Of a DNA stretch of 54,105 nt, positions 20,624-30,352 are shown in pieces (position 1 is the stretch's first letter; the number at the start of each line of letters is the position of its first letter). A program made the translations under genes and the position numbers. This DNA is from Gammaproteobacteria bacterium. Lineage in GTDB: Bacteria > Pseudomonadota > Gammaproteobacteria > UBA6429 > Thiohalophilaceae. A model generated the notes under the pieces. That model ran no database searches, was not told where the DNA came from, and saw only the letters and a program-made list of their open reading frames with translations. The stretch is taken from NCBI GenBank assembly GCA_024641475.1, contig JAHECZ010000019.1:1-54105 (forward strand). Direction: 5' to 3'.

Positions 20624-21787
20624 ATGAAGGCTGTTGCATTAGGTCGTGGAACACAGATATTTGGACTGATTACCGTAGTGCTACTGGCACTCAATGGCTG
20701 CCAACAGAAAAGCGCGAGCAATGTCGTGCGTATCGGCTCCGTGGCCCCGTTAACCGGTGCCCAATCCCATTACGGCAAGGATAATGACAATGGTGCACGG
20801 CTGGCGGTGGATGAACTCAACGCTAAAGGCGTGATCATTGGTGGCAAGAAGGTCACCATTGAGCTGATCAGTGAAGACGATCAGGCCGATCCCCGCACCG
20901 CCACCATCGTCGCGCAGAAACTGATTGATAAACAGGTCAAGGGCGTGATTGGCCATCTGAATTCCGGTACGTCCATCCCTGCTTCCAAGATTTATCACGA
21001 TGCCGGCATTCCACAAATCTCCCCCTCCGCCACTGCGATTGCGTATACCGCACAAGGATTCAACAGTACCTTTCGCGTGATGACCAATGACCGCCAGCAA
21101 GGCAAAGTCCTCGGCGAATATGCGGTGAAGAAACTCGGCAATAAAGCCGTCGCGATCATCGATGACCGTACTGCCTATGGACAAGGTCTGGCCGACGAAG
21201 TCGCCAAAGCCGTGGAAGCGGCCGGTGGTAAAATCGCCTCACGCCAATACACGACCGACAGCGCCACCGATTTCACGGCGATCCTCACTGCCATCAAGGG
21301 CGCCAATGCGGATGTGGTGTTTTACGGCGGCATGGATCCGCAAGGTGCACCCTTGGTAAAACAAATGCGTAACCTTGGTTTGCACGCCAACTATCTTGGT
21401 GCTGATGGCATCAAGACCCTGGAATATTTAACGCTCGCCGGTAAAGACGGTGATGCGACGATTGCATCGATGCCGGGTTTACCCCTGGAGAAAATGCCCG
21501 GTGGTAAAGAATTCAATGCCAAGTTCACCGCCAAGTATGGTCCAATCCAGGTTTATGCACCGTATGCGTATGACGCCGTCAACGTATTGATCGATGCGAT
21601 GGTGCGTGCCGGTTCAAGTGACCCCGCCAAATATTTACCTGAATTGCACAAGACGCAATTCAAAGGCGTGACCGGTGACATTTCATTTGATGATAACGGT
21701 GATGTCAAAGCTGTCGCCATTACGCTTTACAAGGATGTGAATGGTCAATGGGAATTACTCGAAACCCTTTCCGGTAATGCACCGTAA
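20624..21787 (+). CDS. livK: branched-chain amino-acid ABC transporter substrate-binding lipoprotein
   Basis: 387 residues with GGGAGG before the ATG. The signal ends in a lipobox-like LNG-C26, so the protein is probably lipid-anchored, unlike the soluble periplasmic LivJ/LivK of E. coli. The mature part is the type I periplasmic-binding fold of the LIV family: IGSVAPLTGAQSHYGKDNDNGARLAVDELN, then GVIGHLNSGTSIPASKIYHDAGIPQISPSAT and APYAYDAVNVLIDAM. Leucine, isoleucine, valine or related amino acids are likely; the sequence does not fix the specificity. Confidence 0.9.
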   Translation: MKAVALGRGTQIFGLITVVLLALNGCQQKSASNVVRIGSVAPLTGAQSHYGKDNDNGARLAVDELNAKGVIIGGKKVTIELISEDDQADPRTATIVAQKLIDKQVKGVIGHLNSGTSIPASKIYHDAGIPQISPSATAIAYTAQGFNSTFRVMTNDRQQGKVLGEYAVKKLGNKAVAIIDDRTAYGQGLADEVAKAVEAAGGKIASRQYTTDSATDFTAILTAIKGANADVVFYGGMDPQGAPLVKQMRNLGLHANYLGADGIKTLEYLTLAGKDGDATIASMPGLPLEKMPGGKEFNAKFTAKYGPIQVYAPYAYDAVNVLIDAMVRAGSSDPAKYLPELHKTQFKGVTGDISFDDNGDVKAVAITLYKDVNGQWELLETLSGNAP

Positions 21788-21809
21788 CTTGCGCTGCAGG
21801 TTGTAAGCA

Positions 21810-22736
21810 GTGGATATTTTCGTTCAACAGCTCATTAACGGGCTGGTACTCGGCAGTATTTATGCGTTGATCGCACTGGGTTATACCATGGTGTACGGTA
21901 TCCTGGAGTTGATCAATTTCGCGCACGGTGAAGTCACCATGTTCGGCGCGATGATCTGCCTGGCGATTCTCAATGCGTTGTTACTTCATAGCGGCTTACC
22001 ACCCCTGTTGATTCTGGGGATTGGCCTGGTCGGCGCCATCGGTTTCTGTATGGTGCTGGGCTATGCGCTCGAACGCATTGCGTATCGACCGCTGCGGCAT
22101 GCACCCCGTCTGGCACCGTTGATTACCGCTATCGGCATGTCGATTGTGTTACAAAATGTCGCCATGTTGATCTGGGGCAAAAAATTCCTGAGTTTTCCCG
22201 ACATCATTCCGATTCAACGCTTCACGATTGCCGGTGCCAATATCACCAATCTGCAGATCGTGATCATTTTATTAGCGATCCTGATTATGATTTGCCTGTG
22301 GCTGTTGATCCATCGCACCCGTCTGGGTCGTGCCATGCGGGCTACGGCGCAATCACCGGAACTCGCTTCGCTGATGGGCATCAATCCCAATACGATCATT
22401 TCCGCCACGTTCATGATCGGTGGCGCGCTGGGTGCCGTCGCGGGGGTGATGGTCAATGCCTATTACGGCCCGGCACATTACACGATGGGCTTTATGCTGG
22501 GTTTAAAGGCCTTCACCGCAGCGGTACTTGGCGGCATCGGTAATATCACCGGCGCGATGTTCGGTGGTTTGTTACTCGGCTTGATTGAAAGTTTTGGTGC
22601 GGGATACATCGGGCAACTCACCGGTGGTTTCATGGGCAGTAATTACCAACATGTGTTTGCCTTTTTTGTGTTGATCCTGATCCTGGTGTTTCGCCCGTCC
22701 GGTTTGTTTGGCGAACGTGTCGGAGAACGTGCGTGA
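21810..22736 (+). CDS. livH: branched-chain amino-acid ABC transporter permease LivH
   Basis: 308 residues from a GTG start. About eight hydrophobic helices, beginning FVQQLINGLVLGSIYALIALGYTMVYGILELINFAHGE, the LivH hallmark. The cytoplasmic loop RAMRATAQSPELASLMGIN contacts the ATPases. It overlaps livM by 4 nt (GTGA). Confidence 0.94.
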   Translation: MDIFVQQLINGLVLGSIYALIALGYTMVYGILELINFAHGEVTMFGAMICLAILNALLLHSGLPPLLILGIGLVGAIGFCMVLGYALERIAYRPLRHAPRLAPLITAIGMSIVLQNVAMLIWGKKFLSFPDIIPIQRFTIAGANITNLQIVIILLAILIMICLWLLIHRTRLGRAMRATAQSPELASLMGINPNTIISATFMIGGALGAVAGVMVNAYYGPAHYTMGFMLGLKAFTAAVLGGIGNITGAMFGGLLLGLIESFGAGYIGQLTGGFMGSNYQHVFAFFVLILILVFRPSGLFGERVGERA

Positions 22737-23869
22737 TTGCCAAATTGCAAAGCAAGTGGCAACACGCCAAACAAGACCGTCGTGTCGTCTACGCCACCTG
22801 GATCGTACTGGCGTTGCTATTGCTGCTCTTACCGTTTGTCACCGGTATGACGTTGGGACGTGGTTGGGTACGCATCATCGATTTCGCGTTGCTGTATATC
22901 ATGCTCGCACTGGGTTTGAACATCGTAGTTGGCTATGCCGGACTGCTGGATTTAGGTTACATCGCCTTTTATGCGGTTGGCGCTTATCTCTATGCATTAC
23001 TTGCCTCGCCACAATTTGGATTGCATTGGCCGGTGTGGGCGATCCTGCCATTGGGTGCGTTGACCGCCGGATTGTTCGGGGTGTTGCTGGGGGCGCCGAC
23101 CTTAAAATTACGTGGTGATTATCTAGCGATCGTCACGCTTGGTTTTGGTGAGATCGTACGAATTTTCCTCACCAATTTAAACGCACCCTATAACATCACC
23201 AATGGTCCTCAGGGGATCAGTCGTATTGATCCCATCGTGATTGCCGGGGTGGACTTGCATCGCACCTATCATCTGTTTGGTCTGAGTATTCCCTCCACTT
23301 ATCTCTATTATTATTTATTCCTGAGTTTCTGTCTGGCGATCATCTTTGTATGTGTGCGTCTGCAGGATTCACGCATCGGTCGTGCCTGGGTGGCCATCCG
23401 CGAAGATGAAATCGCTGCCAGCGCCATGGGGATTAACACCCGCAATATCAAATTACTGGCATTTGCGATGGGCGCCAGCTTTGGTGGGATCAGCGGCGGT
23501 CTGTTTGCCGGGTTTCAGGGCTTTATCAGTCCGGAAAGTTTTACCTTGTTTGAATCGATCATCGTCGTCTGCATGATCGTATTGGGCGGCATGGGTAACA
23601 TCACCGGCGTGATTCTTGGCGCAATCCTGTTAACGGTATTTCCCGAGGCACTACGTTACCTGGGTGAATTGCAACGCCTGGTGTTTGGTCAGATTCTCGT
23701 GGATCCCAATGATCTGCGTTTATTGATCTTTGGACTGGCGCTGGTGCTGATCATGATCTTCCGTCCTTCGGGTTTATTGCCCTCGGTACGTCGTGAGCGC
23801 GAATTTGCCGCCGATAATTCCTCCGTGCTGGAGCAGGAACAGGAAAGTCTGTATGACCAGCAACGCTGA
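22733..23869 (+). CDS. livM: branched-chain amino-acid ABC transporter permease LivM
   Basis: 378 residues from a GTG that overlaps the livH stop. Helices with LNIVVGYAGLLDLGYIAFYAVGAY and the coupling loop RAWVAIREDEIAASAMGINTR identify LivM. Its N-terminus has an extra charged stretch (LQSKWQHAKQDRR) before the first helix. The last 17 nt overlap livG. Confidence 0.94.
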   Translation: MIAKLQSKWQHAKQDRRVVYATWIVLALLLLLLPFVTGMTLGRGWVRIIDFALLYIMLALGLNIVVGYAGLLDLGYIAFYAVGAYLYALLASPQFGLHWPVWAILPLGALTAGLFGVLLGAPTLKLRGDYLAIVTLGFGEIVRIFLTNLNAPYNITNGPQGISRIDPIVIAGVDLHRTYHLFGLSIPSTYLYYYLFLSFCLAIIFVCVRLQDSRIGRAWVAIREDEIAASAMGINTRNIKLLAFAMGASFGGISGGLFAGFQGFISPESFTLFESIIVVCMIVLGGMGNITGVILGAILLTVFPEALRYLGELQRLVFGQILVDPNDLRLLIFGLALVLIMIFRPSGLLPSVRREREFAADNSSVLEQEQESLYDQQR

Positions 23870-24659
23870 TACGATCACGCTGCCACACAACGCCACGCCG
23901 GTATTGTCAGTACATGCTTTATGCAAATCGTTTGGCGGTTTGGCAGCGCTCAGTGAGGTGAGTTTTGCAATTCAAGCCAAAGAAATCTTTGGCCTCATCG
24001 GTCCTAATGGTGCAGGCAAGACAACCCTGTTCAATGTATTGACTGGCTTGTATTCCGCTGATGCCGGCAGTGTGACTCTGGCCAATCACAGCCTGTTACT
24101 ACGCAAACCGCATGAGGTCGCACAATGCGGCCTGGCACGCACCTTTCAGAATATTCGTTTGTTTGCCAACATGACGGCATTGGAAAATGTCATGGTCGGC
24201 CGGCATGTGCGGACACGCAGTGGTGTACTCGGTGCGATTCTGCGCAATCGCGCCACCATTAAGGAAGAAACCGCCATCACTGCGCGTGCACAAATACTCC
24301 TGGACTACGTTGGGCTTGGTACCGTCACCAATCAATTAGCCAAATATTTATCCTATGGCGATCAACGCCGTCTGGAGATCGCCCGGGCACTGGCAACCGA
24401 CCCTAAACTGCTGGCATTGGATGAACCCGCTGCCGGGATGAATCCCAGCGAGACACAGACACTACGTGATTTACTGCAACGTATACGCAATGATGGTGTG
24501 ACCATATTGTTGATAGAACACGATATGCAACTGGTAATGAATCTGTGCGATCGTGTCGTGGTGCTGGATTACGGTAAGAAAATTGCCGAAGGCGTGCCTG
24601 CCGATGTGCAGCGCAATCCACATGTCATTGAAGCCTACCTGGGTGGTACCTTCCTGTGA
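23853..24659 (+). CDS. livG: branched-chain amino-acid ABC transporter ATPase LivG
   Basis: 268 residues from the ATG at 23853, with AGGAA upstream; an in-frame Met 20 codons earlier lies inside livM and is less likely. Walker A GPNGAGKTT, the LivG insert region (ARTFQNIRLFANMTALENVMVG), signature LSYGDQRRLEIARAL and Walker B LLALDEPAAGMNP are intact. Confidence 0.94.
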   Translation: MTSNADTITLPHNATPVLSVHALCKSFGGLAALSEVSFAIQAKEIFGLIGPNGAGKTTLFNVLTGLYSADAGSVTLANHSLLLRKPHEVAQCGLARTFQNIRLFANMTALENVMVGRHVRTRSGVLGAILRNRATIKEETAITARAQILLDYVGLGTVTNQLAKYLSYGDQRRLEIARALATDPKLLALDEPAAGMNPSETQTLRDLLQRIRNDGVTILLIEHDMQLVMNLCDRVVVLDYGKKIAEGVPADVQRNPHVIEAYLGGTFL

Positions 24660-25363
24660 TGCTACAGGTGGAAAATCTCAGTGTGGCATATGGCGCTGTG
24701 AATGCCGTTAAAAGCATTGATTTACAGATTGCAGCGGGGGAACTTGTCTGTCTGATCGGCGCCAATGGCGCGGGTAAAACCACCACTCTAAAAACACTCG
24801 GTGGCATGCTCAAGCCGCAACATGGCCGCATTGAATATTTTGATCAATCGATCTGTGGTCTGCCTTCGCATGAATTATTGCAACGCGGCATTGCGCTGGT
24901 CCCTGAAGGTCGCGGTATTTTTTCTCGGCTGAGTGTGCGTGAAAATCTGCAACTCGGGGCCTACAGTCGCAATGACGCGGCCGGTATCACACAAGACCTG
25001 GAGCAAATGTTTACGCTATTTCCCCGTTTAGCCGAGCGCGCCGGACAGATTGCCGGTACGCTGTCCGGTGGTGAACAACAAATGCTGGCGATTGCCCGTG
25101 CGCTGATGAGCCGTCCCAAATTATTACTATTGGATGAACCCAGCATGGGCCTGGCACCGGTCATGGTCCAGAAGATATTTCAAACCATCCGCGATATCGC
25201 CGCCGCCGGGGTCACGATCCTGCTGGTGGAACAAAACGCCAAACTCGCCTTGCAAATCAGTCAACGTGGTTATGTGATGGAGAACGGCCGTATCACGCTG
25301 ACCGACGCCGCCCCGGCACTGCTGGCCAATCCGCAGGTGCAACATGCGTATCTTGGTGGTTAG
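24659..25363 (+). CDS. livF: branched-chain amino-acid ABC transporter ATPase LivF
   Basis: 234 residues from the ATG at 24659, whose A is the last base of the livG stop; a GTG three bases earlier is possible. Walker A GANGAGKTT, VPEGRGIFSRLSVRENL, signature LSGGEQQMLAIARALMSRP and Walker B LLLLDEPSMGLAP are complete. It ends the liv operon; no terminator hairpin with a T tract follows. Confidence 0.94.
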   Translation: MLQVENLSVAYGAVNAVKSIDLQIAAGELVCLIGANGAGKTTTLKTLGGMLKPQHGRIEYFDQSICGLPSHELLQRGIALVPEGRGIFSRLSVRENLQLGAYSRNDAAGITQDLEQMFTLFPRLAERAGQIAGTLSGGEQQMLAIARALMSRPKLLLLDEPSMGLAPVMVQKIFQTIRDIAAAGVTILLVEQNAKLALQISQRGYVMENGRITLTDAAPALLANPQVQHAYLGG

Positions 25364-25367
25364 ATCA

Positions 25368-25491
25368 GGTGATCGCAGCACTGCAGTTAGGTAATTCCTG
25401 AGGTGACGATCGGCCGCAGGGATGCGGCCGGAGAGCGTACATGGATGTATTTACAGCGATCACCGCAGGAATTAGCTAACTGCAGTGCGAT
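25368..25491. repeat. MITE-like inverted-repeat element between livF and hemN
   Basis: Outer arms 25378-25400 and 25466-25488 are inverted repeats matching at 22 of 23 positions. Allowing a 3-nt insertion in the left arm, the match extends by five more bases (atcgc at 25372-25376, gcgat at 25487-25491). Inside lies a perfect hairpin, cggccgca (25411-25418) and tgcggccg (25423-25430), and the motif GAGCGTACATGGATGTATTT. A second inverted pair, ggtgatcgc (25368-25376) and gcgatcacc (25456-25464), crosses the outer arms. There is no reading frame. From memory, similar 'GGGATG ... GTACATGGATGTA' repeats are scattered in other gammaproteobacteria. No target-site duplication is evident. Confidence 0.65.
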
Positions 25492-25538
25492 ATATTTGAG
25501 AACATGAAGTGATACCACCCTCACGATAGTATAGAATT

Positions 25539-25552
25539 TTGATATACATCAA
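25539..25552. promoter_or_regulatory. FNR/Anr box of hemN
   Basis: TTGATATACATCAA matches the TTGAT-N4-ATCAA consensus perfectly. Its centre (25545.5) is placed as in a class II FNR promoter: a -10-like CATACT at 25576-25581 gives a start near 25587, 41-42 bp downstream. Confidence 0.8.
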
Positions 25553-25608
25553 CCCTGCCCCACCCCAATCCAGCGCATACTAACCGCCCATTACCTGACA
25601 CAGACACT

Positions 25609-26988
25609 ATGGAACAACAGATCACATTCGACGAGGCTCTGATTAAACGCTACGACGTCGCCGGGCCACGTTATACTTCTTACCCGACTGCCGTGCAATT
25701 TCATACTGGCCTTGATGCTGCCGCATACCGACAGGTTCTGGCGACACGTGACAGTAACCGACCGTTATCCCTGTATTTTCATTTACCTTTCTGCGACACC
25801 GTCTGTTTCTACTGTGCCTGCAACAAAGTGGTGACCAAGCGGCGTGAAAAGGCCGCCCCGTATCTACAGCGCGTACACCATGAGATGCAACTTGTCGCGG
25901 CACAGTTAGCCGGATCACGTCGCGTCGAACAATTACATTGGGGCGGGGGCACGCCCACCTTCATCAGCCATGACGAAATGCGCGAACTGATGCGGGTCAC
26001 CCGCAGCCTGTTTGATCTGGCCGATGACACCCAGGGTGAATACGGCATTGAAATTGATCCGCGCGAAATCAAACCCGACACGTTGGCGGTACTGCGCGAG
26101 ATTGGTTTTAACCGGCTGTCGATGGGCGTACAGGATTTTGATCCACGGGTGCAAAAGGCCGTGAATCGGCTTCAGTCCGAGGCGGAAACATTTGGTGCGT
26201 TGAACGAGGCACGCCGCCTGGGCTTTCGTTCCATCAGCATGGATCTGATCTATGGCCTGCCGTTTCAAAGTGTCGCCAGCTTCATGACCACTCTTGATAA
26301 GGTACTGGCTGTGCAACCCGATCGCTTGTCGGTATTCAATTACGCGCACTTACCCGAGCTATTCAAACCGCAGCGCCGCATTAATGCAACCGATCTACCT
26401 GCGCCACAAGTGAAACTGGACATCTTGCAAATGACCATCGCCCGGCTTACCGACGCAGGCTATGTCTATATCGGCATGGATCACTTTGCGCGACCCGATG
26501 ATGAGCTGGCGATCGCGCAGCGCGAAGGCAAACTGTACCGGAATTTCCAGGGTTATTCGACGCACGCAGAATGTGATCTGCTGGGCTTTGGGATTACCTC
26601 GATCAGCAGCGTCAACGACTGTTTTGCACAAAATCTCAAAGAGCTCGATGATTACTACCCACGTATCGATGCCAACGAGTTGCCCATATTCCGCGGTATT
26701 GTACTGGATGCCGACGATCGCTTACGCCGTGACATCATTATCCAGTTGAGCTGTCACTTCGAGTTGGTTTTCACAACCATGGAAACCAGGCACAATATTA
26801 CATTTACCGATTACTTCAGTCGTGAATTACAGGATTTGCAACAAATGCAAATCGATGGGCTATTACAGTTGCAACCTGGTCATTTACAGGTTCTGCCTGC
26901 TGGTCGGCTGCTGATCCGCAATATCTGCATGGTGTTTGACAAATATTTGCGCGACAAGACCCGGCAACGCTTCTCAAAAGTAATCTGA
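25609..26988 (+). CDS. hemN: oxygen-independent coproporphyrinogen III oxidase HemN
   Basis: 459 residues, the E. coli HemN length. The radical-SAM cluster motif CxxxCxxC (C62, C66, C69) with a fourth cysteine at 71 is present, as are HWGGGTPTF and EIDPREI for SAM binding. The C-terminal HemN domain (DYFSRELQDL) follows. The enzyme decarboxylates coproporphyrinogen III without oxygen. The GGGTPT and C-x-C features separate it from HemW-like proteins. The perfect FNR box upstream fits anaerobic induction. Confidence 0.96.
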   Translation: MEQQITFDEALIKRYDVAGPRYTSYPTAVQFHTGLDAAAYRQVLATRDSNRPLSLYFHLPFCDTVCFYCACNKVVTKRREKAAPYLQRVHHEMQLVAAQLAGSRRVEQLHWGGGTPTFISHDEMRELMRVTRSLFDLADDTQGEYGIEIDPREIKPDTLAVLREIGFNRLSMGVQDFDPRVQKAVNRLQSEAETFGALNEARRLGFRSISMDLIYGLPFQSVASFMTTLDKVLAVQPDRLSVFNYAHLPELFKPQRRINATDLPAPQVKLDILQMTIARLTDAGYVYIGMDHFARPDDELAIAQREGKLYRNFQGYSTHAECDLLGFGITSISSVNDCFAQNLKELDDYYPRIDANELPIFRGIVLDADDRLRRDIIIQLSCHFELVFTTMETRHNITFTDYFSRELQDLQQMQIDGLLQLQPGHLQVLPAGRLLIRNICMVFDKYLRDKTRQRFSKVI

Positions 26989-27027
26989 TATTAATAAAGA
27001 ACGTACCTGATTATTTTCTGTACCGAT

Positions 27028-27055
27028 AAAAAAATGGCGCTGATTACAGCGCCAT
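27028..27055 (-). terminator. rho-independent terminator of the NHL lipoprotein gene
   Basis: A perfect 9-bp stem (27034-27042 with 27047-27055), 4-nt loop, and on the minus strand a run of seven T. It sits 20 bp beyond the stop of the minus-strand gene and may also stop hemN transcription from the other side. Confidence 0.9.
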
Positions 27056-27074
27056 CCCCCTCGCACAGCGAGTG

Positions 27075-29159
27075 TCAATCGCCGTTATAGATCAACACCC
27101 GGTTATTTAGCGTATCAGAAATATAAAGATGGCTAGCATCAACAAATACGCCCGTCGGAGTATTGAGCGTTGCGTCTGTTATTCCAGTTGCTGTCGAAGT
27201 GAAGTTCGCTTGCCCCACAACCTGATCAGCTGGCTGACCATTAATAACAGGGAAACTATTCCAAACCAGCACACGATTATTACTGCCGTCCGTCACAAAT
27301 AATTGGTCATTATGTACAAACACTCCTCCCCAGGGATAATTCAGCGTTACTGCCGATGCAGTACCGCCCTGGTTAACTGCTTTGTGAGTAAAATCAGTTT
27401 GTCCCAGCACTACATCCGCCGCCTGGCCGTTTGAATCGGGGAAACTGTTCCAGATCAACATACGGTTATTGTTAGTGTCGATAATCACCAGGCGCGTGCC
27501 ATCGGTCCAGACTGCAGACGGACCATTGAGCGTGTTTGCAGCGACTGAACCTGCCCGATTTGCTGCACAGCTCATCATGTTTGCTTGACCTAAAACCAGA
27601 TCGGCTGGTGTATCGTCATTGGTTGGGACATTATTCCAGATCAATACGCGATTGTTGTCTTCATCCGCCACCACCATTTTATCGGCCGCTGCCCAGACCG
27701 CGGCGGGTTTTGCTAATTTATGCGGGTTACATGCACCGCTCTGTGAAGCCTGTTTGTTTTCCTGGCCGACAACCACATCCATAGCGGCGGCAGAACTGGT
27801 TGGTACCGTGTTGTAAATACCAATGCGGTTATTTACATAATCGGGCAAAAATAATTTGCCACCTGAGATCATCGGACTCAGCGGGCCGTTGAACTTCATT
27901 GCACTGCTACCGGAACTAACGCTCATCATATCGGTTTGGCCCAACGCATAATCTGCACTCGCGCCATTGCTGGCTGGTACGGTGTTAAATACCATTACCC
28001 GATTATTGCCATAATCTGCAATATATAGCTTGCCAGTATTCACGAATATACTACCCCACGGACCATGCAATACTGTGGCCCCATCTCCGCTTGTTCCGGA
28101 ATAGATTGTTTTACTTTTGAAATCAGTTTGTCCGACAACAATATTGGCAGCCTTGCCATTGACCAGGTTTAATGGTGGCGTATCTACGGCAAAAATGACT
28201 TTGCTGGTTGTGCTCGCGACGACACCCGTGGAATCCATGACTGAAAAAATCACATTTGCTGCTGCATAAGTAACGGTTGGAGTACCGCTGACTACACCGG
28301 TATTGGAATCAAAATTTAAACCCCCTGGCAGCGTACCTGAATAACTATAGGTATAGCCTGGCATACCACCAGCCGGTGTAATCGGTTTAAAATTTGTCAT
28401 TAACGTATTGACTGTCAGATGCTGTGCGGTCATATCTGCCGTTGCACTGATCGCTGGTGTGCCATCAGCCGCATTAACCGTAAAACTAACGGTACTGGTT
28501 GTCGTTGCCTTGACACCATTTTTGTCAGTTACTGAAAATATCAAATTTGCTGTTGAGTACGTGATGACAGGTGTACCACTTACCAACCCGCTGGCGTGAT
28601 CAAACGTTAATCCTGCCGGTAATGAGCCAGTGAGGCTGTATGTATAGGGTTCGGAACCACCACCAACTGTTAGCGGTAAAAAATCAGTCATGGTCGTGCC
28701 CGCCATTAAAATCTGCGCTGTCGTATCTGCGATAGCACTGATTGCAGGTGTACCGTCAACGTCATTGACAGTCACATGTACTCTACTGGTGGTGCTTGCT
28801 CCGATTTTGTCTGCATCGGTTACATAAAAAACCAGGTCGGCTGTTGAATAGGTAAGAAGTGGCGTACCGCTGAGCACACCGGTGCCTGGGTTAAAGCTAA
28901 GCCCATTGGGTAACTTCCCAGTGTAGCTATAGGTGTACGGTGTTTTACCGCCACTGGCCATTAAGGGGGAAAAATCGGGCATTGCAGTGCCCACGACCAG
29001 AATCTGTGTACTGCTATTGGCCTTGGCACTGAGTGCCGTCGGGCCGTTATTGGTGACATTGGCAGTATCTGCAACATTACCGCTACCACCGCCACCACCA
29101 CAGGCAGACTGAGCAATAACAATGACTAATAATAATATGCGAACAAAATAAGACTTCAT
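27075..29159 (-). CDS. lipoprotein with three Ig-like domains and a six-blade NHL-type propeller
   Basis: 694 residues from the ATG at 29157-29159, preceded by GAGGTG; an in-frame Met four codons earlier is less likely. A lipoprotein signal (lipobox SA-C20) leads into a glycine run typical of gammaproteobacterial surface lipoproteins. Three ~95-residue putative Ig (He_PIG-like) repeats follow, each with a YTYS..G.LP.GL.F...TG..SGTP pattern. The C-terminal ~360 residues contain six NNR-x-x-(I/V)-(Y/W/F)N units (NNRVMVFN, NNRIGIYN, NNRVLIWN, NNRMLIWN, NNRVLVWN, NNRVLIYN), spaced ~55-65 residues, i.e. a six-blade NHL propeller. Its role is unknown; extracellular binding is a guess. Confidence 0.85.
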   Translation of the reverse strand: MKSYFVRILLLVIVIAQSACGGGGGSGNVADTANVTNNGPTALSAKANSSTQILVVGTAMPDFSPLMASGGKTPYTYSYTGKLPNGLSFNPGTGVLSGTPLLTYSTADLVFYVTDADKIGASTTSRVHVTVNDVDGTPAISAIADTTAQILMAGTTMTDFLPLTVGGGSEPYTYSLTGSLPAGLTFDHASGLVSGTPVITYSTANLIFSVTDKNGVKATTTSTVSFTVNAADGTPAISATADMTAQHLTVNTLMTNFKPITPAGGMPGYTYSYSGTLPGGLNFDSNTGVVSGTPTVTYAAANVIFSVMDSTGVVASTTSKVIFAVDTPPLNLVNGKAANIVVGQTDFKSKTIYSGTSGDGATVLHGPWGSIFVNTGKLYIADYGNNRVMVFNTVPASNGASADYALGQTDMMSVSSGSSAMKFNGPLSPMISGGKLFLPDYVNNRIGIYNTVPTSSAAAMDVVVGQENKQASQSGACNPHKLAKPAAVWAAADKMVVADEDNNRVLIWNNVPTNDDTPADLVLGQANMMSCAANRAGSVAANTLNGPSAVWTDGTRLVIIDTNNNRMLIWNSFPDSNGQAADVVLGQTDFTHKAVNQGGTASAVTLNYPWGGVFVHNDQLFVTDGSNNRVLVWNSFPVINGQPADQVVGQANFTSTATGITDATLNTPTGVFVDASHLYISDTLNNRVLIYNGD

Positions 29160-29398
29160 CGTGCACCTCATAAAATAAATATGCTGAGATAACGCGATGC
29201 TGTCATGCTGCTATGCGGGTTTTCCTGTAGTCCAGTTTAGGGGTACTACACATCGCGCTTACTTCCATGTACGTAGTGTCCCCTTTACCCGTACTCCTGG
29301 GCAATAAACGATTACCCTACTTTTTATCGTGAACAGGTAGACTGACTACAGTATCGAACTGACAGTTATTTCCTTGCATGCGACCACTGTGCGAAGCG
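29160..29398. other. 239-bp gap between the NHL lipoprotein gene and the truncated pyrophosphatase gene
   Basis: No reading frame is supported. Four copies of TGTAGT or a one-base variant occur: 29226-29231 (+), 29245-29250 (-), 29272-29277 (CGTAGT, +) and 29345-29350 (-). The first two form an inverted pair 13 bp apart, and ggggtactac (29240-29249) is an imperfect inverted match to gtagtgtcccc (29273-29283). This may be the operator region of the lipoprotein gene. Confidence 0.4.
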
Positions 29399-29785
29399 CT
29401 ATAAGTTGAGGAAAGATAGTGGCGTATACACATCTAGTTCAAGCGAACGACAACGTTCACGAACCCAGTTGGGTTTGCCATCAACGGCATCAATATCACC
29501 GGTCACGACGCTATCAATACCTGTTTTTTCTTTCAGCCATTGCAAACTATACTCATAACCTTCATCAAAAGGTTCGCTCACGGGTAAAACATAATGTGGT
29601 AGCGCCAATGCTGCGGCTTGCATAGCGATAAAATCCAACGGGTGTGCCAGAAACGTGGCATGCAATGGTGCAAAAGTAGCGAGACAACGAATGTTATATC
29701 CTGCTTGCTGCGCATGATACATAGCCAAGGCCGAGTCCTTACCACCGGTCCAGAGCATCGCCGCATTGCGATGTGGCTGCATCAT
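29399..29785 (-). pseudogene. Dph6-like (DUF71) ATP-pyrophosphatase, truncated at the C-terminus
   Basis: 128 residues. The N-type PP-loop (WTGGKDSALAMYHA, 13-26) and the DUF71 pattern (VVTGDIDAVDGKPNWVRERC) are clear. Related proteins are about 215-230 residues, so roughly the last 90 are missing. The frame stops at a place where the family continues with a PLWG-like segment (here PLSFLNL then stop). Other frames over the next 230 bp do not restore it. It follows the YdjM-like gene by 9 bp. Whether the shortened protein has any function is unknown; a decayed gene is more likely. Confidence 0.6.
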
Positions 29786-29794
29786 GCCAGTGAT

Positions 29795-30352
29795 TTAATC
29801 ATTCTGATTATTTTGTGCCGTGGTATTCCTGCGCAAGGTTCGCCATCCCAATACACATAGCGCCATACTTATACTTGGCAGCCACACCCAGAATAACTCG
29901 GATTGCAGCACGGCCAGTCCATGCATAGAGAATAGGCGCGACACGCCAATTGGCGAGACATCAATAACTTGTACGGGGGCGAAATAACGCTGCGTCGAGA
30001 ATGGCCAGAAAAATGCGATGCCCAGCCCGCCGTTGGTAAGCGCATCCAGCACACCATGTGATGCCATAGCAAAAAATATAAATCCATAAGCACGCGCGAA
30101 TGTGGTTTGTAACCATCGGTACATGAAAGCAGCTACTAACGCTGCCATTGCAGCAAACAACAGCGAATGTGAAAAACCGCGATGACCAAAGGCGGCGGCA
30201 TAAGGAATGCCATAATGAAAAGCCAGCACATCCAGATCCGGCAGCATCGCAGCAAGAACACCGCATGTCACTAATCGCGCCGATAGTGCCGCAGGCCCCA
30301 GGCCAAGTCGGATTGCCAGGGGTACCGCTGCATGAGTCAGAATAGTTGGCAT
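29795..30352 (-). CDS. YdjM-like inner-membrane metal-dependent hydrolase family protein (DUF457)
   Basis: 185 residues with about four to five hydrophobic helices. The family motifs are visible: MPTILTHAAVPLA at the N-terminus, LPDLD near 38-42, HRGFSHSL near 57-64 and SHGVLDALTNGG near 98-109, supplying conserved His and Asp residues for metal. E. coli YdjM is LexA-controlled; no convincing LexA box was seen here. The substrate is unknown. Confidence 0.85.
   Translation of the reverse strand: MPTILTHAAVPLAIRLGLGPAALSARLVTCGVLAAMLPDLDVLAFHYGIPYAAAFGHRGFSHSLLFAAMAALVAAFMYRWLQTTFARAYGFIFFAMASHGVLDALTNGGLGIAFFWPFSTQRYFAPVQVIDVSPIGVSRLFSMHGLAVLQSELFWVWLPSISMALCVLGWRTLRRNTTAQNNQND

Follow-up and report, generated by a model that had tools for sequence, protein, structure and literature searches.

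Between a livF-type and a hemN-type gene, a gammaproteobacterial genome carries a palindromic element (25368-25491), which the original prediction described as a MITE-like repeat that might insulate or modulate hemN. What is this element, and which of the two genes would it serve? The window analysed here, i.e., the whole stretch of DNA in which the element lies, is 54,105 nucleotides long. In our reading, which we hold with about even confidence, the element is a copy of a YPAL-type dispersed family of structured RNAs that would dock CsrA, here within the 3′ untranslated region (UTR) of the liv transcript. The element and its surroundings comprise the following features:

24656..25363, + strand: livF-type ABC ATPase gene, upstream, end of the liv operon (ABC_tran, 1.2e-31)
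25368..25376, + strand: upstream half of the alternative 9-bp pairing, with 25456-25464 (inverted-repeat search)
25378..25406, + strand: 5′ arm, locus-specific stem, 29 nt, 93% complementary to 25460-25488 (fold)
25403..25463, + strand: conserved apical core, matched by covariance model R1 (70.0 bits, E 2.6e-16)
25411..25430, + strand: hairpin 1, loop CAGGGATG (C-ANGGAX-G) at 25417-25424 (inverted pair, motif scan, covariation)
25435..25457, + strand: hairpin 2, loop CATGGATG (C-ANGGAX-G) at 25440-25447 (motif scan, spacing, covariation)
25460..25488, + strand: 3′ arm, locus-specific stem (inverted-repeat search, fold)
25539..25552, + strand: palindrome TTGATATACATCAA resembling an FNR box, located between element and hemN (from the sequence, by a presumed consensus)
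25609..26988, + strand: hemN-type gene, downstream (Radical_SAM 2.4e-20, HemN_C 9.3e-07)

The arms, predicted to be 23 bp long, proved somewhat longer, with 27 of 29 nucleotides paired (93% complementarity) and a total span of 111 bp (25378-25488). The perfect 8-bp hairpin expected within them is present (25411-25418 / 25423-25430, 100% complementary), as is the second inverted pair of 9 bp (25368-25376 / 25456-25464, likewise 100%). Folded as RNA, positions 25360-25500 reach -72.2 kcal/mol compared to -38.1 kcal/mol (sd 3.8) in 200 shuffled sequences (z -8.97), none of which was equally good. The 9-bp pair and the arms are mutually exclusive, and enforcing the former yields -47.9 kcal/mol, i.e., a fold 24 kcal/mol worse; no 9-nt counterpart of this outer pair was found in the 107 named copies and the 49 copies of a congeneric genome (see below) with measurable arms. 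Thus, the two predicted folds do exclude each other, but a switch between them is not borne out. The window copy carries two CANGGANG motifs 23 nt apart. Searching the whole genome with R1 recovers it at an E-value of 1.0e-15, although its own score is not independent, as it is one of the 30 sequences behind the model. A further weak match (20831-20893, + strand, 25 bits, E 0.001) lies inside the open reading frame (ORF) of a periplasmic binding protein and is probably due to chance. No intrinsic-terminator-like site was found at the element, and the idea that such elements insert into existing terminators was rejected on this ground.

The neighbours of livF (BPD_transp_2, BCA_ABC_TP_C and Peripla_BP_6) mark a branched-chain amino acid transport operon. 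Both livF and hemN are encoded on the + strand, and the strand of the element that carries the GGA motifs (GGA strand) is the livF sense strand. The element ends 120 nt before hemN, and between the two lies TTGATATACATCAA at 25539-25552, which resembles an FNR box by the presumed consensus TTGATNNNNATCAA. The element would thus be missing from a hemN mRNA started at that promoter, and the transcription start of hemN is, by this presumed consensus, likely located downstream of it. A role of the element in insulating or modulating hemN is therefore unlikely. The expected lack of a linked transposase held for the nine window proteins scanned around the element (20624-30352), and csrA is present in the source genome (G000).

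At the corresponding livF site of the only other genome of the same genus in our set of 96 (G001), the syntenic region aligns in pieces of 64-77% identity. Comparing this junction in relatives, as had been proposed, did not reveal an empty site; instead, G001 also holds a copy here (L078:2140-2340), 37 nt after livF and with other arms. An 8-bp direct repeat, ATAAATAC, flanks it, and ABC-transporter-type genes follow it, not hemN. As the arms differ and the direct repeat surrounds the copy, it may represent a separate insertion.

A BLAST search of the 96 genomes using a 141-bp stretch as query yielded matches in 17 of them including G000; these covered the core and left out the outer arms. Thirty aligned cores (BLAST set) were employed to build R1, which matched four sites in G000 with E-values of up to 0.1 (C126, C127, C71 and C112) and at least 150 sites in G001, revealing a dispersed element and not a single-copy local RNA. 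The resemblance to dispersed gammaproteobacterial repeats that had been pointed out in the original prediction thus proved well founded, also beyond the 96 genomes: a pattern scan of public genomes retrieved at least 119 stretches with the core pattern, inside which R1 identified 135 + 31 = 166 copies (named set). Wherever their titles give a class or genus, we take it to be gammaproteobacterial, while two titles state Proteobacteria only. The complete chromosome of Stenotrophomonas maltophilia SJTL3 contains at least 129 copies (129 of 150 candidates scored), and a copy in Yersinia similis (L190:7887-7949) scored 71.1 bits. Among the genera with copies, Marinobacter, Methylotuvimicrobium and Stenotrophomonas, for instance, include cultured species.

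Plasmid and phage records gave no match to the 141-bp query at an E-value of 1e-5. Viral contigs contributed three stretches with the pattern, and because there were only three, the family is probably not mainly phage-borne as judged from these searches. Of the 17 genomes with the element, 15 have a csrA gene, as do 66 of the 79 without it; the two exceptions among the former (G021 and G029) are assemblies of ~550 contigs each. Co-occurrence of csrA and the element is thus uninformative. Ordinary neighbours, of the FKBP and SPase II types, lie between two copies in L087, and the idea of a flanking gene cassette was rejected. Among four Stenotrophomonas genomes, sites were shared, rearranged or partly deleted, and no clean empty site was observed.

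The apical core of 62 nt consists of hairpin 1, a short joint and hairpin 2, which carries a conserved TTTAC on its 3′ side. Among the 30 copies of the BLAST set, 15 of 21 base pairs are altered on both sides, amounting to 88 such cells compared to 22.8 in shuffled alignments and 4-17 in slid structures used as a control. The wider set of 134 distinct rows, fitted to R1, shows 620 double-change cells compared to 157 after shuffling; here, double changes affect 17 pairs, a number that 54 of 500 shuffles also attained. Some copies are enlarged. Nine of these were chosen by hand, as a non-exhaustive sample, and five (L034, L112, L113, L107 and L272) contain extra hairpins with GGA loops, which are absent from L078, L205, L142 and L131. 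The copy at L034:662-826 (+ strand, genome G021) has several hairpins, some with AGGA loops, in place of hairpin 1, on top of a long, near-perfect stem.

Both loops read C-ANGGAX-G, with N and X being the most variable positions. The available part of PMC4005645 describes an ANGGAX hexaloop placed directly on a stem as a high-affinity CsrA/RsmE site, in which N and X are looped out and variable. The loop form seen here matches this published arrangement, with two sites per unit. In the named set, hairpin 1 was left untouched by the search pattern. Out of 146 distinct cores examined, 101 had a clear stem and were placed by stem complementarity only. They conserve C in 90, A in 96, G in 99, G in 99, A in 98, X as T in 82 and the closing G in 90 cores, while N is G in 43, T in 42, A in 14 and C in 2. 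The pattern did constrain part of hairpin 2, whose conservation in this set is not independent evidence. All 50 SJTL3 cores of 62 nt show CANGGANG in both loops. Their hairpin 1 invariably reads CATGGATG, while at hairpin 2 N is T in 27, G in 14 and A in 9 cores, and X is C in 34, T in 15 and G in 1. The SELEX consensus of CsrA is RUACARGGAUGU.

Both motifs were retained in 26 of 30 copies of the BLAST set, 38 of 63 in G001 (one motif in 22, none in 3) and 51 of 55 in SJTL3, three sets drawn without the search pattern, and in 115 of 166 named copies, which were drawn with it. Among copies with two motifs, the spacing is 23 nt in 25 of 26 (BLAST set), 30 of 38 (G001), 50 of 51 (SJTL3) and 91 of 115 (named). 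A CsrA dimer bridges sites roughly 10-60 nt apart, with an optimum near 18 nt. In loop 2 of the BLAST set, the C-G closing pair is present in 30 of 30 copies, while the enclosed A and X remain unpaired in 7, as a hexaloop allows.

Three orthologous Stenotrophomonas sites were compared in up to four species. Among intact copies, hairpin 2 differs in N and/or X at five of six positions, the comparison displaying only loops that match CANGGANG. The non-intact cases are hairpin 2 of one D5.1 copy, which adjoins an inserted stretch, the E301 unit and the left EA1 copy at site 2, and the EA1 unit at site 3, where D5.1 could not be anchored. At site 1, the right EA1 copy is exchanged together with its stem. 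At these sites (in L267, L280, L281 and L282), loop letter N of hairpin 2 varies between species although the units around it are often ~90% identical. Judging from these alignments, the loop of hairpin 2 may turn over faster than its neighbourhood, or copies may exchange with each other.

The arms pair with each other, yet their sequence mostly differs from locus to locus. Terminal repeats common to the copies, as a MITE would have them, are therefore not what we found: most copies have arms of their own. Subsets that share arms exist among G001 copies, in other genera and in SJTL3, so that G001 holds two classes, one with shared and one with locus-unique arms. Where arms are at least 15 nt long, they reach beyond the model by a median of ~23 nt in 102 named and ~29 nt in 49 G001 copies, and are perfect in 19 of 106 named and 21 of 51 G001 copies. 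Because some unique arms in G001 are related by eye and still perfect, their sequences suggest copying of one arm onto the other. Ordinary terminators are an unlikely identity for the family, considering perfect arms of ~30 bp with unrelated sequences. Direct repeats of at least 6 nt within 2 nt of the arm ends occurred in 1 of 49 G001 copies (8 bp) and in 0 of 102 named copies, which is about chance, and no target duplication was seen by eye at the window copy.

Mismatches in the arms were counted outside the 62-nt model, on the GGA strand. If the structure functions as RNA, or as single-stranded DNA with a fixed polarity, only one strand should tolerate G.T mispairs. After removal of 57 copies whose flanks or arms were too short and of 7 duplicates from the 166 named copies, G.T exceeds A.C by 135 to 22 in the remaining 102. 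In 99 named copies, arm positions 1-20 show 105 vs 28, and the excess is gone beyond the stem (positions 27-45, 178 vs 291). Purine-purine mismatches also outnumber pyrimidine-pyrimidine ones in the named set (74 vs 17), so wobble tolerance cannot explain the whole asymmetry. Fifty-two SJTL3 copies gave 19 vs 6. Replication strand as the cause was rejected, as neither member of the SJTL3 pairs reverses the excess (7:0 in + and 10:5 in - members), albeit with small numbers. Twenty BLAST-set copies from other genomes showed 18 vs 7, which became non-significant (13 vs 6, p 0.17) in the 18 left after removing two copies shared with the named set. No excess was detected in the arms of 35 G001 copies (16 vs 15) or in hairpin 1 stems (14 vs 12 named, 7 vs 6 G001). 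The strand-asymmetric signature is thus strong in the pooled named set, and is neither clean nor universal.

Copies less than 600 nt apart were treated as close pairs. In SJTL3, 37 of 37 such pairs face outward, with gaps of 166-279 nt, and so do 9 of 11 in G001 among the matches listed (147 copies). The named loci contain 17 outward, 10 same-direction and 2 inward pairs (29 in total), and 7 of the 10 same-direction pairs fall within three arrays. An outward-facing pair ensures that transcription from either direction meets one GGA-strand copy. The arrays at L132:3129-3728, L217:2175-2513 and L230:4895-5789 contain three to six copies each, spaced by 70-140 nt, with the same direction in L132 and L217 and mixed directions in L230. 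By eye, 26 pairs in L260-L279 of SJTL3 are composite units, many of them bounded by outer inverted repeats and having inner CGACAG/CTGTCG-like and other short repeats in their spacers. A further hairpin, CCACCATGGATGGTGG, lies between paired copies in the L163 spacer near 1700.

With respect to genes, G001 copies occupy 23 convergent, 29 tandem and 5 divergent gaps (6 of 63 unplaced), compared to 38, 92 and 39 among all gaps of at least 150 nt at the same loci. The 100 placed named copies fall into 33 convergent, 49 tandem and 18 divergent gaps; a further 42 border the edge of their locus, and 24 are located within long ORFs, whose reality is questionable where the DNA is GC-rich. For SJTL3 pairs, 16 of 26 were placeable (8 convergent, 5 tandem, 3 divergent, vs 15, 34 and 20 for other gaps). 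Between tandem genes, the GGA strand showed no bias towards the direction of transcription (19 sense and 30 antisense named, 16 and 13 in G001; orientation from crude ORF calls), meaning that roughly one in two of them lies antisense to its neighbouring genes.

We propose the following mechanism. A stem of ~30 bp, largely free in sequence and fixed in pairing, would present two hairpins on the GGA strand. Their C-ANGGAX-G loops, putative high-affinity CsrA/RsmA sites 23 nt apart, could be bridged by one CsrA dimer, given the known bridging range. An intergenic copy, often near 3′ ends, would thereby place a CsrA docking site in the 3′ UTR of any through-running transcript, which for the livF-hemN copy would be that of the liv operon. 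Docking might titrate CsrA and/or alter the decay of that mRNA. The element itself may be mobile. In a broader and rather doubtful extension of this proposal, YPAL-type repeats would constitute a mobile, genome-wide CsrA sponge: each insertion would add a docking site for a CsrA dimer at an mRNA 3′ end, outward pairs would offer one site in the right orientation for transcription of either strand, copy number (4 vs at least 150 in one genus) would reset the free CsrA of a lineage, and some copying process would re-make the stem at each site as a near-perfect palindrome of new sequence.

How does CsrA docking compare with other explanations? A serious possibility, to which we assign a minority share of our belief, is a selfish YPAL/REP-like DNA repeat whose transposase reads the hairpins as single-stranded DNA and thereby keeps the loop letters, the likeness to CsrA sites being coincidental or without effect on the host. 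The disparity between 4 and at least 150 matches in two genomes of one genus would fit such an element, as would the missing gene-orientation bias, the prediction in the available part of PMC2229807 that YPALs were recently mobile, and the 37 of 37 outward pairs of SJTL3, whose fixed spacing (gaps of 166-279 nt) recalls REPIN-like units. Unpaired SJTL3 copies moreover lie on the presumed leading strand in 35 and on the lagging strand in 20 cases, assuming the origin at coordinate 1. G.T mispairs are the mildest also in single-stranded DNA, so that the mismatch signature suits this explanation too. On the other hand, a common transposase end is missing from arms that are mostly unshared, direct repeats beside the arms are at chance level (1 of 49 and 0 of 102), neither G000 nor G001 has a Y1_Tnp match, and it is not obvious why a transposase site would let N and X vary most in two different hairpins.

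Alternatively, the long stem could suffice as a 3′-end module, acting as a barrier to 3′ exonucleases, an RNase III or E site or a Rho-related end without CsrA. Stems of ~30 bp, the prevalence of convergent over divergent G001 copies (23 vs 5, with 38 vs 39 such gaps available), the similar leaning of the SJTL3 pairs (8, 5 and 3 vs 15, 34 and 20) and the suggestion in the accessible portion of PMC2229807 that YPAL might affect the stability of upstream transcripts speak for it. We nonetheless consider it unlikely, as such a module would not need two conserved loops, the element has no intrinsic-terminator-like site, and the named set does not avoid divergent gaps (18 of 100 placed copies). Very improbable, in our judgement, is a leader switch or insulator specific to hemN that works through the two alternative folds. 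Both pairings exist and the element ends 120 nt upstream of the gene, but the alternative fold costs 24 kcal/mol and recurs in none of 156 other copies, the FNR-like box intervenes, and the G001 copy 37 nt after livF is followed by ABC-transporter-type genes and not by hemN.

If the CsrA reading is correct, repeats treated as genomic clutter would become part of the Csr/Rsm network, and one chromosome with at least 129 copies would hold up to ~250 high-affinity CsrA loops beyond the known antagonist RNAs. YPAL would gain a mechanism, and the near letter-for-letter constancy of two loops on a stem whose sequence changes almost completely would be explained.

Several known systems resemble the family in part. 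REP/REPIN elements are likewise short palindromic intergenic repeats that form inverted pairs; however, the arms seen here are mostly locus-specific. A Y1 transposase (PF01797) as partner was rejected, since it found no match in G000 or G001, while being present in 7 of 12 genomes searched. MITEs differ in that terminal inverted repeats are mostly not common to the copies here. No Rfam family of the Csr/Rsm RNA kind reached its gathering score in the window. CsrB/C and RsmX/Y/Z also expose ANGGAX loops on stem hairpins, according to the part of PMC4005645 at hand, but the present units carry two sites each and are dispersed in few to more than 100 copies. The Yersinia sRNA Ysr224 (Rfam RF02770) gave the best sub-threshold match over a copy (L034:445-544, + strand, 32.6 bits, E 4.7e-05) and a weaker one in the window (25410-25497, - strand, 13.7 bits, E 1.7); neither reaches the gathering score of 70, and both fall on the complement of the GGA strand. 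From this overlap, Ysr224 may be the transcript of a YPAL copy.

The closest relative is YPAL/RU-2. In the sequence given in the available part of PMC2759123, we recognised by eye the same core, loops CAAGGATG and CATGGATG and the GAGCCTACATGGATGTATTTACGGCG segment, and YPAL, too, is intergenic and present in many copies. The accessible text of PMC2229807 gives a length of ~168 bp and target duplications of 3-26 bp; in comparison, the livF-hemN unit is shorter (111 bp), its stem is by eye unrelated to that of YPAL, and such duplications were not found here. The main text of PMC2229807 never mentions CsrA, and a literature search retrieved no link between CsrA/RsmA and YPAL-type repeats among the best-ranked matches of several hundred or more. 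Taken together, the family is known in Yersinia as YPAL, and what the present analysis adds is its spread across the class, the CsrA-type rule of its loops and the outward orientation of its pairs.
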